A stretch of 64,000 nt of DNA, taken from NCBI GenBank assembly GCA_035559535.1, contig DATMBG010000045.1, forward strand, positions 1-64,000, read 5' to 3'. The translations under genes were made by a program, and so were the position numbers. Position 1 is the stretch's first letter. Each line of letters starts with the position of its first letter. The DNA comes from Candidatus Limnocylindrales bacterium. GTDB taxonomy: Bacteria > Moduliflexota > Moduliflexia > Moduliflexales > JAUQPW01. The notes beneath the pieces were generated by a model. That model was not told the origin of the DNA. It ran no database searches and was given only the letters and a program-made list of their open reading frames with translations. Of the stretch, positions 4,585-50,617 are shown piece after piece.

Positions 4585-5616
4585 ATGAATCGTTTTACTC
4601 CTCATTTCTGGATAATACTGCGGACGGTCTTGGGGATCGGTTTACTCTACTATGTACTTTCAACAACCGGGATCTGGTCCTCCATCAACCGGTTAATTTC
4701 CATTCTGTGGCTGCTGCCGGGTTTGGTCGTTTTAACCCTGTTCGGGGCAACGGTGGAAGCTAAACGACTGGGATATCTCTTTAGATCCCAGGGAATTTGT
4801 CTCCCATTCGGTAAAGGATACCAACTGGTTACCGTGGGTACTTTTTTTAACTTTTGTATACCGGGGGGGACAGGAGGGGATGTTATGAAATTATATTACT
4901 TGACCCTGGAAAACCCCGGTCGTGGCATTGAAGTTGCCACGATTTTATTCATTGACCGTGCGGTAGCTTTATTTTCTCTCCTGTTCCTGATAGTTGGATT
5001 GGCCCTCTTCAACAGACAATTTGTGAAGGACTATCTACTTATCCAATGGCTTGTGATCGTTGCAGGGATCGGCATGATAGGGATACTGGTTGGAATTATC
5101 CTTTCCTGCTCCCTACGCACCCGGATCGGTAAACTCTCTTACCCCCTCCTGACCCGAATCCGAATACCTTTCTTCTGTTATTTAGAGCGCGCCTTTAAGG
5201 TACTTTCTGCATTTCGGGATTATAAGGGAGTTCTCCTGGGCGCTGCATTTATTTCTCTCTGTGGCCATCTGGCACTTACCGGCATGTTTTTGTTGGTCGG
5301 AAGAGAGTTCTTTCCCCAGGTCTCCGGTCTTACCGTCGGTTTATTAGCCCTGCTCGGCATGCTGGTCAATGCGCTACCCATAACTCCAGGTGGACTGGGA
5401 GTCGGTGAAGCTGCCTTTAACGGATTGTTCGGGTTACTGGGTTATATGGGCGGGGCCCAATTGATGCTGGCCTGGCGTCTCGGCACCATTCCCCTCTGTC
5501 TTATAGGTTGTGGACTCTATATCTGGGGCGTTCAGAGGGAGGGTCATCCCATCCGGCAGGCCCGTCAAATATCCCTGTTTAGATCCTCACCGGAAGAAGT
5601 GAATAGCAAGTCATGA
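4585..5616 (+). CDS. Flippase-like integral membrane protein (UPF0104 / LPG-synthase TM family)
   Basis: A 343-residue polytopic protein with roughly eight hydrophobic segments. Two hallmarks of the UPF0104 / lysylphosphatidylglycerol-synthase TM family are visible: NFCIPGGTGGDVMK around residues 91-105 and ITPGGLGVGEAAF around 268-281. Members without the soluble aminoacyl-transfer domain, as here, are widespread in glycan clusters and are often proposed to move or hold lipid-linked intermediates; that role is not proven. A paralogue at 28959-29981 also lies beside a flavoprotein and a GT2 gene, which hints at a recurring functional unit. Confidence 0.85.
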   Translation: MNRFTPHFWIILRTVLGIGLLYYVLSTTGIWSSINRLISILWLLPGLVVLTLFGATVEAKRLGYLFRSQGICLPFGKGYQLVTVGTFFNFCIPGGTGGDVMKLYYLTLENPGRGIEVATILFIDRAVALFSLLFLIVGLALFNRQFVKDYLLIQWLVIVAGIGMIGILVGIILSCSLRTRIGKLSYPLLTRIRIPFFCYLERAFKVLSAFRDYKGVLLGAAFISLCGHLALTGMFLLVGREFFPQVSGLTVGLLALLGMLVNALPITPGGLGVGEAAFNGLFGLLGYMGGAQLMLAWRLGTIPLCLIGCGLYIWGVQREGHPIRQARQISLFRSSPEEVNSKS

Positions 5617-18232: not shown

Positions 18233-19908
18233 ACCGTCACCCTTCGGCTTCTGAAATTTACTTTACTTCTATCCTTGAGCAGGCCCCCCATGTACTCAGT
18301 TTGATGGATCGTGAACCCTTAAGTCCAACTGCCGGCTGTTGTGATCGTACCTATTGGGCCTGGAAGTTTGTAGACTTCCCGGGGGCTCGTTTCCAGGAAG
18401 CGTTATGCGTTTTAAGTTTTTTATATTCAACCCCTTTGGAAAATAACCCCTATTTTCATAATGCAAAACTGCTGAACTGGATCGGTCTGGGAATGCGTTT
18501 CTGGTCGGCCATTCAACATTCCGATGGAAGTTTCGATGAGGCCTACCCATTGGAACGTTCTTTAGCCGCTACGGCTTTTACAACTTTTTACCTGGGAGAA
18601 GCCCTTGAATTTACTAGAAATGATTTGCCGAAGGACCTTCAAGCCCAGCTACGACAGACCATGGTGCGGGCAGGTCAATGGTTGATCAAAAATGATGAAA
18701 CCCATGGTTTTCTCTCGAATCACCTTTCCGCTGCTGCTGCCGCTCTGTATCATGTTTACCGGATTACAGGGGAGGAGATCTTCGAACAACGGAGTCAATA
18801 CTTTATCGAAAAAATCCTGAGTCGACAGTCCCGGGAGGGTTGGTACGAAGAATATGGAGGGGCCGATCCAGGATACCAAACCCATGGGAGTTTCTACTTA
18901 GTGCGCCACTGGCAACTGAGCCAGAATAAAGATCTGGCAGAATCTCTAGGTCGTTCGATGACCTTCCTGGCCCATTTTGTGCATCCAGATGGGAGTCTGG
19001 GAGGGGAATATGCCAGTCGTAATACCCAGACTTATTACCCCGCTGCTTTTGAGATGTTTGCAGCCTACCATCCCATAGCCGCCTGGATAGCTGAGACCAT
19101 GCGACCTTCAGTAGTCAATGGGGCGGCAGTGAGCTTGAGAAGTGTGGATAGTTACAACTATTTTCCTTTTCTTAATAATTTCGTCTTTGCCTATCTGGCC
19201 TGTGTCGATAAGAATCGTATTCCCCTCCAGCCGGAAGAACCATCCCGTCAACCGGGGCTTGTCTGGTTCCCGGAGGCAGGAATCGCCCGTATTCGCCGGA
19301 AACGCTATGATGCCTATATCGGAATAGCCAAGGGAGGAGTCATAAAGGTTTTCGATCGTTTCCATAAAAAGCTGGTTTATAGCGATTGTGGGTATATCGG
19401 TCGACTCCATACCGGACAGCTTTTTTCTACCCAGTGCGAAGATCCTCACCGGATCTTTTCCGTCGAGCCGGACAAAATCGAGGTCAAAGGCATATTCTTC
19501 GAGATCTCCAGACCCACCATGGGACCTTTCAGGTTTGTGGCTTTCCGCCTGTTTACCTTATCTTTTGGGCGTTTGACCGGTTTAGGCCGATGGCTCAAGA
19601 GGTATTTGGTGAAGGCACTGATTTATCGCAAACGCCCACTAAAGATTCAGTTCAGACGGATCATAAAATTTGACGAAACCAGGGTGGATGTTTACGATGA
19701 AATTTCCGGACCGGATGGCGAGTATGTTGAGAATTTACAATGGGGAGAAGTATTTACCACCATCCATATGGGCTCGTCCCGCTACTTCATTAACCATGAA
19801 TTGGGGGAAGGGTCTGGATTGAACTCCGACAGGCTCCGGGAGATTAATCCAAAGCAAATTGGATCGGGTATAAAATTGCAACGCAGGATTAATTTCCCCG
19901 AGGATTAA
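18229..19908 (+). CDS. Heparinase-like alpha/alpha-toroid protein
   Basis: A 559-residue protein without signal peptide or membrane helix. Residues about 60-330 are helical-hairpin repeats of an alpha/alpha toroid with conserved aromatic and acidic stretches (HSDGSFDEAYPLERS, DETHGFLSNHLSAAA, GWYEEYGGADPGYQTH). The second half (about 340-559) looks beta-rich, as in heparinase II/III-like polysaccharide lyases. Similar proteins are regular neighbours of the bi-domain oxidoreductase in glycan loci, where cleavage or binding of the lipid-linked glycan is suspected. No experimental role is known to me. Confidence 0.72.
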   Translation: MNRHPSASEIYFTSILEQAPHVLSLMDREPLSPTAGCCDRTYWAWKFVDFPGARFQEALCVLSFLYSTPLENNPYFHNAKLLNWIGLGMRFWSAIQHSDGSFDEAYPLERSLAATAFTTFYLGEALEFTRNDLPKDLQAQLRQTMVRAGQWLIKNDETHGFLSNHLSAAAAALYHVYRITGEEIFEQRSQYFIEKILSRQSREGWYEEYGGADPGYQTHGSFYLVRHWQLSQNKDLAESLGRSMTFLAHFVHPDGSLGGEYASRNTQTYYPAAFEMFAAYHPIAAWIAETMRPSVVNGAAVSLRSVDSYNYFPFLNNFVFAYLACVDKNRIPLQPEEPSRQPGLVWFPEAGIARIRRKRYDAYIGIAKGGVIKVFDRFHKKLVYSDCGYIGRLHTGQLFSTQCEDPHRIFSVEPDKIEVKGIFFEISRPTMGPFRFVAFRLFTLSFGRLTGLGRWLKRYLVKALIYRKRPLKIQFRRIIKFDETRVDVYDEISGPDGEYVENLQWGEVFTTIHMGSSRYFINHELGEGSGLNSDRLREINPKQIGSGIKLQRRINFPED

Positions 19909-19990
19909 GTGTGGGAGTGTGGGAATGCGAGAGTATGGGAGTATGGGAGAGTATACCCCCATACTCCCATACCCCCACACTCCCATACTT
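19909..19990. repeat. Family C repeat (GGGAGTATGGGAGTATGGGAG ... CTCCCATACTCCCATAC)
   Basis: Runs of GGGAGTATG units followed by the complementary CCCATACTC units form a long imperfect hairpin that fills the gap between the toroid gene and asnB. The distal text CACACTCCCATACTTAA is shared with the copy at 50515-50608; a third, more diverged copy is at 32526-32631. Confidence 0.8.
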
Positions 19991-20025
19991 AAAAACACAC
20001 TCTCCTATAACGGATCAGGGACAAA

Positions 20026-21969: not shown

Positions 21970-22149
21970 ACCCTTTAGAAAGGAGCTTAGAAGTCAGACC
22001 TGGGAATGCAAGCGCCTCACTTTAAGTTGGTGAGTAGTGAATAGCGAATAGCAAGTACCTCACTCCCCTTCCCTTTCTAAGGTAGGTTTTTTCTAACTTA
22101 CCCTTAAAAGGAGGGGAAAGAGGGTATAGGCGCCAGGATAAGGTAGAAA

Positions 22150-22176
22150 TACAGGCGCAATGCCTTGCGCCCCTAC
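22150..22176. repeat. Family B palindromic repeat (GGGCGCAATGCCTTGCGCCC)
   Basis: ACAGGCGCAATGCCTTGCGC plus CCCTAC: a 27-base palindromic unit, nearly identical to the one at 23344-23372 and related in form (GTAGGGGCG ... CGCCCCTAC) to 28007-28035, 29314-29341 and 53973-54005. Confidence 0.8.
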
Positions 22177-23343: not shown

Positions 23344-23372
23344 TGTACGGGCGCAATGCCTTGCGCCCCTAC
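23344..23372. repeat. Family B palindromic repeat
   Basis: TGTACGGGCGCAATGCCTTG followed by CGCCCCTAC, in the 132-base gap before the GT39-glycosidase fusion gene. Its core is the same as in the copy at 22150-22176. Confidence 0.8.
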
Positions 23373-28006: not shown

Positions 28007-28035
28007 GTAGGGGCACGGCGGCGCCGTGCTCCTAC
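28007..28035. repeat. Family B palindromic repeat (GTAGGGGCACGGCGGCGCCGTGCTCCTAC)
   Basis: A 29-base palindrome of the family B form, ten bases upstream of the ATG at 28045. An in-frame GTG at 27946 would make translation pass through this repeat and give a composition unlike GT2 N-termini. This is the main reason for choosing the later start of the next gene. Confidence 0.8.
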
Positions 28036-28958: not shown

Positions 28959-29981
28959 ATGGGTGCTTTTCCTTCCAAAATATGGCAGAAACCTTCCACC
29001 CGAATTATTATAAGCTTATCCCTTCTTGGGTTTTTGTTGGTAAAGTTGCCCCTTTCCGACCTCTGGCAGGCTATTCGGCAGGTTTCGCCCGGGCTATGGA
29101 TATTTTCAATTCTGGTGTTTATGATGGGACATGTGCTGGGGGTGGTTAAATGGAGTCTTTTGATTAACATGGGAAAAAACAAGCTCCCTTTCCTCGTTGC
29201 GGCCCGTTGTTACTTTGCCGGACTGTTTGCAAATCTTTGTCTGCCTTCAATTGCAGGAGGAGACATTGTTCGTGCCGCTATGGCCATGGGATTTCCCAAT
29301 GGAAAGGCAGAAAGTAGGGGCGGGAGGCCCCCCGCCCGTACAGAAGCCGTTCTTTTGGGAAGTGTTTTAGACCGATTTTTGGATATAGCTTCTCTGGCGT
29401 TTCTGATGTTTTTGGGTATCTGGTCAGCACCCGGAGCCGTAACAACGGAAGATCGTAGGGTCCTTTCCTGGGCTTTATTTTTCCTGTTCGGCTTTGCCCT
29501 TTGCACTCTGCTTTTCCTCCTCCTTCCACTCCCGAAAAGCATACCTGTTCGACTGGGCTTATGGATTACTCGCTGTCGTCAAATCATCCGGCACTTACTC
29601 AAAAATCCGGAGCGAGCTCTGGTCGGATTCGGTATAGCGACCTGTGTTCAAGGAGCCTTTGTTCTGTTAGCTGCCACTTTGGGAGCAGCCTGTGGCATTC
29701 ACCTGGCCAGATCGATTTGGTTTCTCATCTGGCCTTTGTCGAAACTGGTGGCTTCGCTGCCCATCAGTATGGGTGGTCTGGGTGTTCGTGAGATAGCCCT
29801 TGTAACCCTGTTGGGGCGATTTGGGATCCCGGCCTCCAGTTCTGTAGGATTAGGTCTACTCTGGCAAACCATTCTGGTCGCCGGAGGGGGAATGGGGGGG
29901 CTCCTCTACCTTCTCCTGAAGAGAAATACTTCAAGGTCAGATGTTCGGGCGGCCTGGCGTATCTCCCATAAAAAAATATGA
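28959..29981 (+). CDS. Flippase-like membrane protein (UPF0104 family) carrying an in-frame palindromic insert
   Basis: A 340-residue polytopic protein from the ATG at 28959; a start at 28884 would overlap the previous gene by 67 bases and is less likely. It has the family motifs LPSIAGGDIVRA and ISMGGLGVREIAL. Compared with the paralogue at 4585, the loop after GGDIVRA is about ten residues longer. Exactly there the DNA is a family B palindrome (29314-29341) coding SRGGRPPAR. The insert keeps the frame, so the protein is probably still made. The next gene overlaps its stop by 4 bases. Confidence 0.83.
   Translation: MGAFPSKIWQKPSTRIIISLSLLGFLLVKLPLSDLWQAIRQVSPGLWIFSILVFMMGHVLGVVKWSLLINMGKNKLPFLVAARCYFAGLFANLCLPSIAGGDIVRAAMAMGFPNGKAESRGGRPPARTEAVLLGSVLDRFLDIASLAFLMFLGIWSAPGAVTTEDRRVLSWALFFLFGFALCTLLFLLLPLPKSIPVRLGLWITRCRQIIRHLLKNPERALVGFGIATCVQGAFVLLAATLGAACGIHLARSIWFLIWPLSKLVASLPISMGGLGVREIALVTLLGRFGIPASSSVGLGLLWQTILVAGGGMGGLLYLLLKRNTSRSDVRAAWRISHKKI
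29314..29341. repeat. Family B palindrome inserted inside a coding sequence
   Basis: GTAGGGGCGGGAGGCCCCCC plus GCCCGTAC is a 28-base palindrome in the UPF0104 gene. A CAGAA pentamer stands on both sides (29308-29312 and 29341-29345), 33 bases apart, as a target-site duplication would. Removing one 33-base unit restores the loop length of the paralogue to within one residue and keeps the frame. Confidence 0.75.
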
Positions 29982-31451: not shown

Positions 31452-32525
31452 ATGAAAACCTCGCAAATTCTTAAGGATTTGTTGGCAAAAGTAAGTCTGG
31501 CTCTCATGAGTCTGATAATTTTTTTTATTGTCTTAGAACTGGGATTCCGTGGAATCGAAGGGTTAAGCAACTGGATGCACAAGTCCTCTAAACCCTGGGC
31601 TATCTATGATGAAGACCTTTTATACCGACCACGACCTGACTATGAAGATCTTAACTCAGATGGATTGAGAAATAGACCCATTGATCCTGTAAAAACAAAA
31701 TTTAGACTTTTAATCCTGGGGGATTCCATCCCTTTTTATGGGGATAACCCTGAAGATACTTACGTGGGACGACTAGAAACTAACCTCCATAAAGACCCTG
31801 ATCTTGTACCCATAGAGACCATCAATGCCGGAATAAAGGGTTATACCAATTACCAGGAACTTGTTTATTTAAAAAAATACGGATTAAAATTCAATCCCGA
31901 TCTTATAGGCGTAAGTTTTTGTTTAAATGACCTTCATAAATTTCTCCACCAGTTTAAGGTTGAAAATGGGGAAATTGTGAGTGATACCTATGAGTTTACA
32001 GAAGAAGCCGTTCATTCGGTGGACAGTACGGCTTACCAGCTTGCACGCAAAAGTCATTTTCTTGTATGGTTACGGCATAAGCTCAGTATATTTGAGAGTC
32101 TCATCGAACTGAAAACGCAGGAAGGCTTCACCTTTGATTATCGACCGGATTTTAGAACAGCCTGGAAGGATGAATCGTGGCCTCCCATTGAAAACCAACT
32201 GAAGGAGATGGTAGAACTCGGCAAGACCCATGGTTTTCGTGTATTTTTGGTTGTATTTCCGTTTGGTGAGCAGCTCCGGGAAGACTATCTGGCGCGAGAC
32301 CGGGCTTACGTAACCAAACCCCAACAGAAGTTGAAAGCAATTTGTGAACGGCTGGGTATCCCTATGCTAGATTTATTTCCGGATATAGATCGAAAAAAAC
32401 ACCTCCTGGAAGATCAGATTCATTTAACCCGAGAGGGAAGAGAACTGGTGGCCGAGAAAATAGCCCTGTTTCTTAAAAGGGAGCAATTGGTTCCAACCCG
32501 TTCTATGATTTCCCAACAAAAATAG
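31452..32525 (+). CDS. Membrane-anchored SGNH/GDSL hydrolase (possible O-acetyl/acyl esterase or transferase)
   Basis: A 357-residue protein with one N-terminal membrane helix (about 11-32) and a large periplasmic domain. SGNH blocks are all present: ILGDSIP (nucleophile serine), NAGIKGY, SFCLNDLH and the terminal D-x-x-H in LEDQIHLTREG. Such proteins in exopolysaccharide loci remove or transfer acyl groups on the nascent glycan, as with AlgX/AlgJ relatives. The gene starts 19 bases after the flavoprotein stop with an AGGGGAAAG site upstream of the ATG. Confidence 0.85.
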   Translation: MKTSQILKDLLAKVSLALMSLIIFFIVLELGFRGIEGLSNWMHKSSKPWAIYDEDLLYRPRPDYEDLNSDGLRNRPIDPVKTKFRLLILGDSIPFYGDNPEDTYVGRLETNLHKDPDLVPIETINAGIKGYTNYQELVYLKKYGLKFNPDLIGVSFCLNDLHKFLHQFKVENGEIVSDTYEFTEEAVHSVDSTAYQLARKSHFLVWLRHKLSIFESLIELKTQEGFTFDYRPDFRTAWKDESWPPIENQLKEMVELGKTHGFRVFLVVFPFGEQLREDYLARDRAYVTKPQQKLKAICERLGIPMLDLFPDIDRKKHLLEDQIHLTREGRELVAEKIALFLKREQLVPTRSMISQQK

Positions 32526-32631
32526 GAAGTAGGGGAGTAGGGGAGTATGGGGATGTGGGAGTGTGGAGGTAGGGGAGTATGGGGGTGTAGGAGTATAGGA
32601 GAATATACTTCCCTACTCCCATACTCCTATC
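32526..32631. repeat. Family C repeat, diverged
   Basis: Tandem-like GTAGGGGAGTATGGGG units pass into the complementary CCCTACTCCCATACTCC, forming a long imperfect hairpin. It is the most diverged of the three copies and fills the whole gap between the SGNH and dehydrogenase genes. Confidence 0.75.
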
Positions 32632-32653
32632 TGGGAAGCAAAAATTTTTCATC

Positions 32654-33798: not shown

Positions 33799-33940
33799 GC
33801 GCCGGGATAAGGATGTTAGCTCCGGTGGGGCGATCTCTTTAACAAGGCGCTGCCAGGGAGCTTAAAAAATTCTAAATTTCTGAATTCTCCGGCGAAAGTT
33901 GAGGGCTACCAATTGTTTGCCCCCTGACGGGGCTTTTCAG
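33799..33940 (+). repeat. Family D long repeat, copy 1
   Basis: Starts AGCGCCGGGATAAGGA, passes GGGGCGATCTCTTTAACA and AAAAAATTCTAAATTTCTGA, and ends CCCTGACGGGGCTTTTCAG. The same order of blocks occurs at 35490-35643 and, on the other strand, at 42242-42460 and 44349-44450. It contains several small hairpins and no open frame. Confidence 0.75.
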
Positions 33941-33946
33941 CCCCTA

Positions 33947-34002
33947 CCTCACCCCCTGTCCCCCTCTCCTCAAGCTTGAGGAGAGGGGGACAGGGGGTGA
34001 GG
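33947..34002. repeat. Perfect 56-base palindrome
   Basis: Two 28-base arms that are exact reverse complements with no spacer, meeting at AAGCTT; the left arm starts CCTCACCCCCTGTCCCC. Perfect palindromes of this length are unstable unless recently formed or maintained. Similar but imperfect hairpins lie near 35454-35487. Confidence 0.85.
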
Positions 34003-34050
34003 GGGGTGATGCAGACGTCGCGCTCCCAGTTAAGTCTTATTTTGGCGCGT

Positions 34051-50493: not shown

Positions 50494-50514
50494 GGAGGCG
50501 GAGATACGGAGAAG

Positions 50515-50608
50515 TATGGGAGTATGGGAGTATGGGAGTATGGGAGAATTTACACCCACACTTCCACACTCCCATACTTAAGAACACACTCCCATACCCC
50601 CATACTTA
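50515..50608. repeat. Family C repeat
   Basis: GGGAGTATGGGAGTATGGGA units followed by CACTCCCATACTTAAGAACA and CACTCCCATACCCCCATACT. It ends about ten bases before the GTG start of the next gene, so any original ribosome site there has been replaced by repeat sequence. Confidence 0.82.
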
Positions 50609-50617
50609 AATGCCCCC

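Follow-up and report, generated by a model that had tools for sequence, protein, structure and literature searches.

Introduction

The GTAG-tagged REPs of bacteria are mobilised by RAYT (TnpAREP) (Di Nocera et al. 2013, PMC3733652; Corneloup et al. 2021, PMC8266576), and their size, copy number, GTAG end, paired stem variants and in-gene copies are all on record (PMC3733652). For the REPINs, inverted pairs of REPs, it has been proposed that the pair is the mobile unit and that singlets are immobile (Bertels and Rainey 2011, PMC3116915); how REPs spread is, according to the literature, still unsettled (PMC8266576, PMC3116915). The Rickettsia palindromic elements (RPE) carry CGTC ends (PMC3733652).

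How does the palindromic repeat analysed here, from a 64,000-nucleotide stretch (the window) of the genome of a Candidatus Limnocylindrales bacterium, compare with these systems? With the GTAG-tagged REPs it shares a palindrome of 20-40 bp, a high copy number, GTAG at one end and complementary stem alternatives, as well as some coding-region copies and nesting in longer palindromes. There are differences too: the GTAG is unpaired there, whereas here GTA pairs with TAC and the sole mismatch, seen in 50 of 90 copies, concerns the last G, and a RAYT is associated there, whereas none was found in this genome, in which the copies are mostly singlets. Since the GTAG is paired for the most part and the assembly yielded no RAYT, we call the repeat a REP-like variant. 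It resembles the REPINs in that these are miniature, non-autonomous, REP-based elements, and some inverted pairs occur here as well; it differs from them in that here singlets are polymorphic between sister species and account for clean filled/empty pairs. The initial annotation had likened the repeat to the RPE, and the likeness extends to the outcome in proteins, both being palindromic repeats that lie in frame in protein genes, but not to the family: the ends are GTAG and [G/C]TAC here as against CGTC there, and the sequence is unrelated as far as described, so that the repeat is not an RPE. The cyanobacterial SDR4-SDR6, which Elhai et al. reportedly described in 2008 as mobile hairpins of 21-27 nt that show compensatory changes and are often situated within tandem repeats, can be likened to it by description only, being of other sequences and from other hosts.

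The palindrome in a UPF0104 gene

The features of the window are collected in Table 1. The palindrome that the initial annotation had placed in frame inside a UPF0104 gene, with CAGAA on both sides and a 33-base period, is found exactly so at 29308-29345: the site in the host ORF reads GGCAGAA-A-GTAGGGGCGGGAGG/CCCCCCGCCCGTAC-AGAAGCC, the A at 29313 standing between the left CAGAA and the palindrome, the reading frame across it is S-RGGRPPAR-T, and the local RNA folds at -27.9 kcal/mol.

Table 1. Coordinates of the host gene, the palindromes and related features in the window
Feature	Position	Strand	Evidence
Host gene, UPF0104 / LPG_synthase_TM (PF03706) membrane protein, 340 aa	28959..29981	+	ORF; Pfam 110.6 bits; orthologue 93% identical in sister genome G001
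28-bp palindrome GTAGGGGCGGGAGGCCCCCCGCCCGTAC, GTAG end left, coding for ~10 residues (SRGGRPPART)	29314..29341	+	Absent in sister orthologue; RNA hairpin z = -3.6
Left CAGAA, pre-existing host sequence, no target duplication	29308..29312	+	Both CAGAA in palindrome-free sister
Right CAGAA, pre-existing host sequence; its C is the last palindrome base	29341..29345	+	Present in sister
Second exact copy, core GCAAGG/CATTGC, near 5' end of long ORF	23345..23372	-	Sister has a short unrelated stretch in its place
Degenerate copy, intergenic	22149..22176	-	Flanks too diverged for defining an empty site
29-bp variant GTAGGGGCACGGCGGCGCCGTGCTCCTAC, just upstream of likely glycosyltransferase gene start (inferred from the methionine of MQEDSLK)	28007..28035	+	Sister: 18 bp vs 34
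Distant PF03706 paralogue, no palindrome at corresponding loop	4585..5616	+	Pfam; GGD-to-DR spacing

The sister genome, G001, at ~92% DNA identity, is the one genome of the same genus with which the sites were compared. Its orthologue reads CAGAA-GGTCCCTCTT-CAGAA, without a palindrome and with the two CAGAA 15 bp apart. The empty site with a single CAGAA that a 5-base target duplication implies was thus looked for in the sister orthologue and two CAGAA were seen; the CAGAA pair is therefore older than the palindrome, whose arrival made no duplication. Relative to the sister, the host gene is longer by 18 bp (6 codons), with ~28 bp in place of ~10 bp, and a lineage-specific gain of the palindrome at this gene is well supported by the comparison.

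The paralogue at 4585, which had been noted as about ten residues shorter at this loop, does have a GGD-to-DR spacing of 27 residues, compared with 38 in the host protein, but it is a distant relative, not among the matches returned by a homologue search with the host protein, and the sister carries the true orthologue, which falls short by just 6 residues. As a length reference it was replaced by the sister orthologue and ~20 homologues, in which the spacing is 32 and mostly 26-29 residues, respectively, so that these other homologues are mostly 3-6 residues shorter still. Judging from these alignments, the GGD-to-DR loop of UPF0104 proteins is tolerant of length change, and the host protein is the outlier.

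A REP-like family amplified in one lineage

Two occurrences of the motif TAGGGGC-N6..30-GCCCSTA were found in the window, compared with 0.02 expected from shuffles, and genome-wide (5.6 Mb) the motif yields 153 strand matches against 2 for a reversed control pattern. The family comprises ~100 copies in the genome; ~101 were fetched and examined, in an assembly that is 95.8% complete. The outer arms of 60 unique 28-bp sequences are near-invariant (GTA-G-GGGC / GCCC-[G/C]-TAC), and the inner six stem pairs covary, being Watson-Crick in 90% as opposed to 54% when the halves are shuffled (maximum 61%, 1000 shuffles), with the family consensus GTAGGGGC-N6/N6'-GCCC[G/C]TAC. Positions 2-3 are paired with 26-27 in 98% of the unique copies, and position 1 with 28 in 80%. 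When 90 copies of 28 bp are oriented, position 4 of GTAN is G in 85, and in 50 it forms a G.G mismatch with position 25, which gives the hairpin a direction, a GTAG end and a GTAC end. The cores are near-uniform across copies (for example, GCAAGG, GGGAGG, GTAAGG). Most copies (71/101) are solitary, with no neighbour within 200 bp, and the other 30 have one within that distance, including some inverted pairs 41-122 bp apart. Taken together, the element is a lone copy of a REP-like hairpin that has a GTAG end and strong compensatory changes in its stem.

The sister has ~10 copies, with mostly different cores, and two order-level relatives have none. In a sample of 144 genomes from many families, 27 contain the outer motif, at up to 151 sites in one of them; this kind of repeat is widespread, with cores that vary between genomes. 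At least three palindromes are recognisable in both this genome and the sister (L075, L096, L103; probably L156 too), and the family therefore predates their split. Its recent amplification took place mostly in this lineage, with ~100 copies versus ~10 in the sister.

Several other palindromic arrangements were observed. Long G/C-rich palindromes (CCCTCTCC...GGAGAGGG) often have a GTAG palindrome nested centrally, and other copies occur without one (window 33938-34011; L006, L011, L077, L095); similar nesting is described for the REPs of Anabaena and Thermomicrobium. Several contigs, namely C8, C13, C29 and C43 (L004, L011, L087, L146), begin or end at or a few bases from GTAGGGGCGGGAGGC[C/T]TCCCGCCCCTAC. 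A hidden transposon at these contig ends with the GGGAGG palindrome was considered and rejected, the shared sequence being a long G/C-rich palindrome; the ends probably reflect breaks in the assembly where long perfect hairpins occur. Tandem arrays of an 8-base unit (TATGGGAG-like) fold back as long inverted repeats at window positions 19905-19992, 32518-32633 and 50503-50610. Finally, the host sequence flanking some copies (L009, at C12:204872; L101; L142:1029) lengthens the palindrome by 4-11 pairs, as if a larger hairpin were favoured, or created, by insertion.

Loss of target bases at filled sites

Two DNA searches served to place the flanking sequences in G001, and the sites were compared base by base. 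Loss statistics come from 23 filled/empty pairs with clear flanks, all against this one sister genome, the ~92% identity of which blurs the boundaries in intergenic regions. The sister bases replaced number 5, 5, 6, 7 (six times), 8, 9, 9, 10, 10, 12, 13, 13, 13, 17, 21, 29, 30 and 46 bp (range 5-46, median 9, mode 7, never zero). Thus, cttcaacaga-[28]-tggcgggtat corresponds to cttcaacaga-GCGGG-tggcgggtat in the sister, gcagaactaa-[28]-tccaagaaaa to gcagaactaa-CTTTTAT-tccaagaaaa, and atatctgcc-[28]-aaacatcac to atatccgcc-GGAGTCA-aaacatcac. The sole apparently lossless site (L093) lies within a tandem repeat. In the reciprocal case (L058), which is filled in the sister and empty here, the loss is ~11 bp there too. 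A target duplication was found at none of the 23 sites, and the 5-base duplication suggested at the outset gives way to loss: as far as alignment to the sister can tell, target bases are shown to be lost, and not duplicated, at every clean site.

The two ends of the element might not be equivalent with respect to the target. The microhomology of the empty target with the GTAG end averages 1.38 of 3 compared with a background of 0.77, and that with the other end 0.81 (paired sign-flip p ~0.04 between the ends at 16 sites, for a signal that was sought after the fact). These weak statistics suggest that, before insertion, the target was already similar to GTA(G) at the position now taken by the GTAG end.

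Copies inside genes

Insertion in genes is tolerated inasmuch as in-frame copies exist, but the copies are roughly sevenfold depleted from genes: only 11 of 101 are found in ORFs of 150 codons or more at a depth of at least 40 codons, whereas 75% of the window positions do. That the family moves, as the initial annotation had held, is borne out by sister orthologues that lack the palindrome at the host gene and at the genes for LeuB, VWA/CoxE (VWA_CoxE), TPR and small membrane (L142) proteins. Each of the latter four is exactly 7 codons longer than its sister counterpart; the UPF0104 protein is longer by 6 codons and a 193-codon ORF by 5. Because 28 leaves a remainder of 1 when divided by 3, the frame in a gene is kept only with losses of 7, 10, 13 bp and so on, and this requirement accounts for the loss sizes in genes; intergenic sites show 5, 6, 8, 9, 12 and 17 as well. 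The copy at 28007, L084 and L139 lie upstream of likely start codons and were not counted among the firm cases; two others, L099 and L140:1467, do lie in genes and were left out of the size argument, the sister differing there by a larger rearrangement (0 and -6 codons).

The direction of change can be read most clearly in LeuB. The alignment of the sister enzyme (GNPRGIEKVDEEERGLNT) to those of Bacillus and Arabidopsis has a single gap residue, whereas the palindrome-bearing form (GNPRGIEIVGATGGSPVHEERGLNT) has 6-8 residues that are unmatched in both. Since distant LeuBs fit the sister form, the palindrome was gained here and the bases coding for KVD were lost. Outgroup polarity is firm at LeuB only; the UPF0104 homologues are consistent with it, in a loop that is variable. 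In a separate observation, a CheA/CheW-type histidine kinase gene (L081; C25, ~85373-85470) carries two in-frame palindromes 41 bp apart; the palindrome region could not be aligned to a 37%-identical paralogue, and no close orthologue of this CheA-like gene was found in the sister.

How did the palindromes move?

Searches of the 95.8% complete assembly with PF01797, NF047646 and the sister RAYT protein as query (E up to 1) found no RAYT/Y1 transposase, whereas a RAYT homologue is present in the sister, beside copies of the repeat. That gene (L062; G001 C130:86160-86810) itself has related palindrome copies in frame in its ORF (VGAGFKPAPTKPAPTKPAPTKPAPT), between the HUH and Tyr regions.

The reading that we favour, with a probability of roughly 0.7, is that a REP-like, GTAG-ended palindrome was amplified after the split from the sister and entered the host gene by overwriting ~10 bp, with a net gain of 18 bp. 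The element would have moved as a single-stranded hairpin, as IS200/IS605 elements do, through the action of an HUH transposase of the RAYT type that would cut beside a target tetranucleotide, the opposite junction then being joined imprecisely; this transposase might now be lost, be missing from the assembly or be supplied by another element. In genes, the survivors would be those events that also removed 7, 10 or 13 bp. The suggested similarity of targets to the GTAG end is what an IS200/IS605-like, RAYT-type reaction beside a tetranucleotide would predict. Insertion of IS200/IS605 elements is normally clean, beside a specific target tetranucleotide and with no target loss, and hence the bases lost here need an extra step.

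The main alternative to RAYT-type movement dispenses with the transposase altogether: a stalled 3' end (GTA) would anneal to a REP hairpin elsewhere, copy it and return a few bases downstream, skipping the lost bases. Such template switching accounts for the small target loss, the weak microhomology at the GTAG end and the lack of a detectable RAYT, and the copying of a hairpin would also keep the arms complementary; by itself, however, it leaves unexplained why the copied 28-bp unit has the same boundaries and why the same motif is associated with a RAYT gene in the sister, and we consider it rather unlikely. Could the palindromes instead be ancestral, the sister having lost them by imprecise deletion, through hairpin slippage or SbcCD cleavage, with short scars left behind? 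Net size change alone is compatible with gain and with loss, a few of the empty-site sequences look like pieces of the element (the L058 pair TAGCGCTTAAACCGG; GTTGGG at L100), and the UPF0104 loop is slightly long in the sister too (32 vs 26-29 residues). Nevertheless, LeuB of distant organisms fits the sister in residues and length, not the palindrome-bearing form, most sister sequences lack element ends beyond chance on the non-GTAG side (0.81 vs 0.77), and the numerous copies with near-uniform cores here are as recent amplification would give, all of which makes deletion improbable. A conventional MITE or a Rickettsia-type element with a 5-bp target duplication, the impression given by CAGAA on both sides with a period of 33 bp, is hardly credible: it is refuted at the host gene by the same two CAGAA in the palindrome-free sister, and none of the 23 sites has a duplication.

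Overwriting by a REP-like hairpin, our preferred reading, leads to a broader proposal that we make only tentatively, namely that a lone 28-bp REP hairpin can itself move, inserting next to a GTAG-like site by replacing a short and variable length of target (mode 7 bp), that this loss is what allows 28 bp to be in frame within genes, and that such families can expand in a lineage lacking a resident RAYT.

Implications

In-gene REPs are already known; what appears to be new here is the replacement signature for single REPs, which we have not found described. Among the open papers searched, none reported target replacement by REPs, and the letters of the repeat, searched as a text pattern, gave only unrelated matches. 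The two sister genomes provide more than 20 filled/empty sites, several of them in conserved genes, including LeuB with its ancestral sequence from outgroups. With so many sites and the ancestral form of LeuB known, the chemistry of insertion becomes directly testable in terms of the bases joined, the bases lost and the end that stays fixed. The sites also show how so small a mobile repeat adds 5-7 residues to proteins such as LeuB, and the overwriting of the target instead of its duplication is a concrete clue to the movement of the smallest bacterial mobile repeats.
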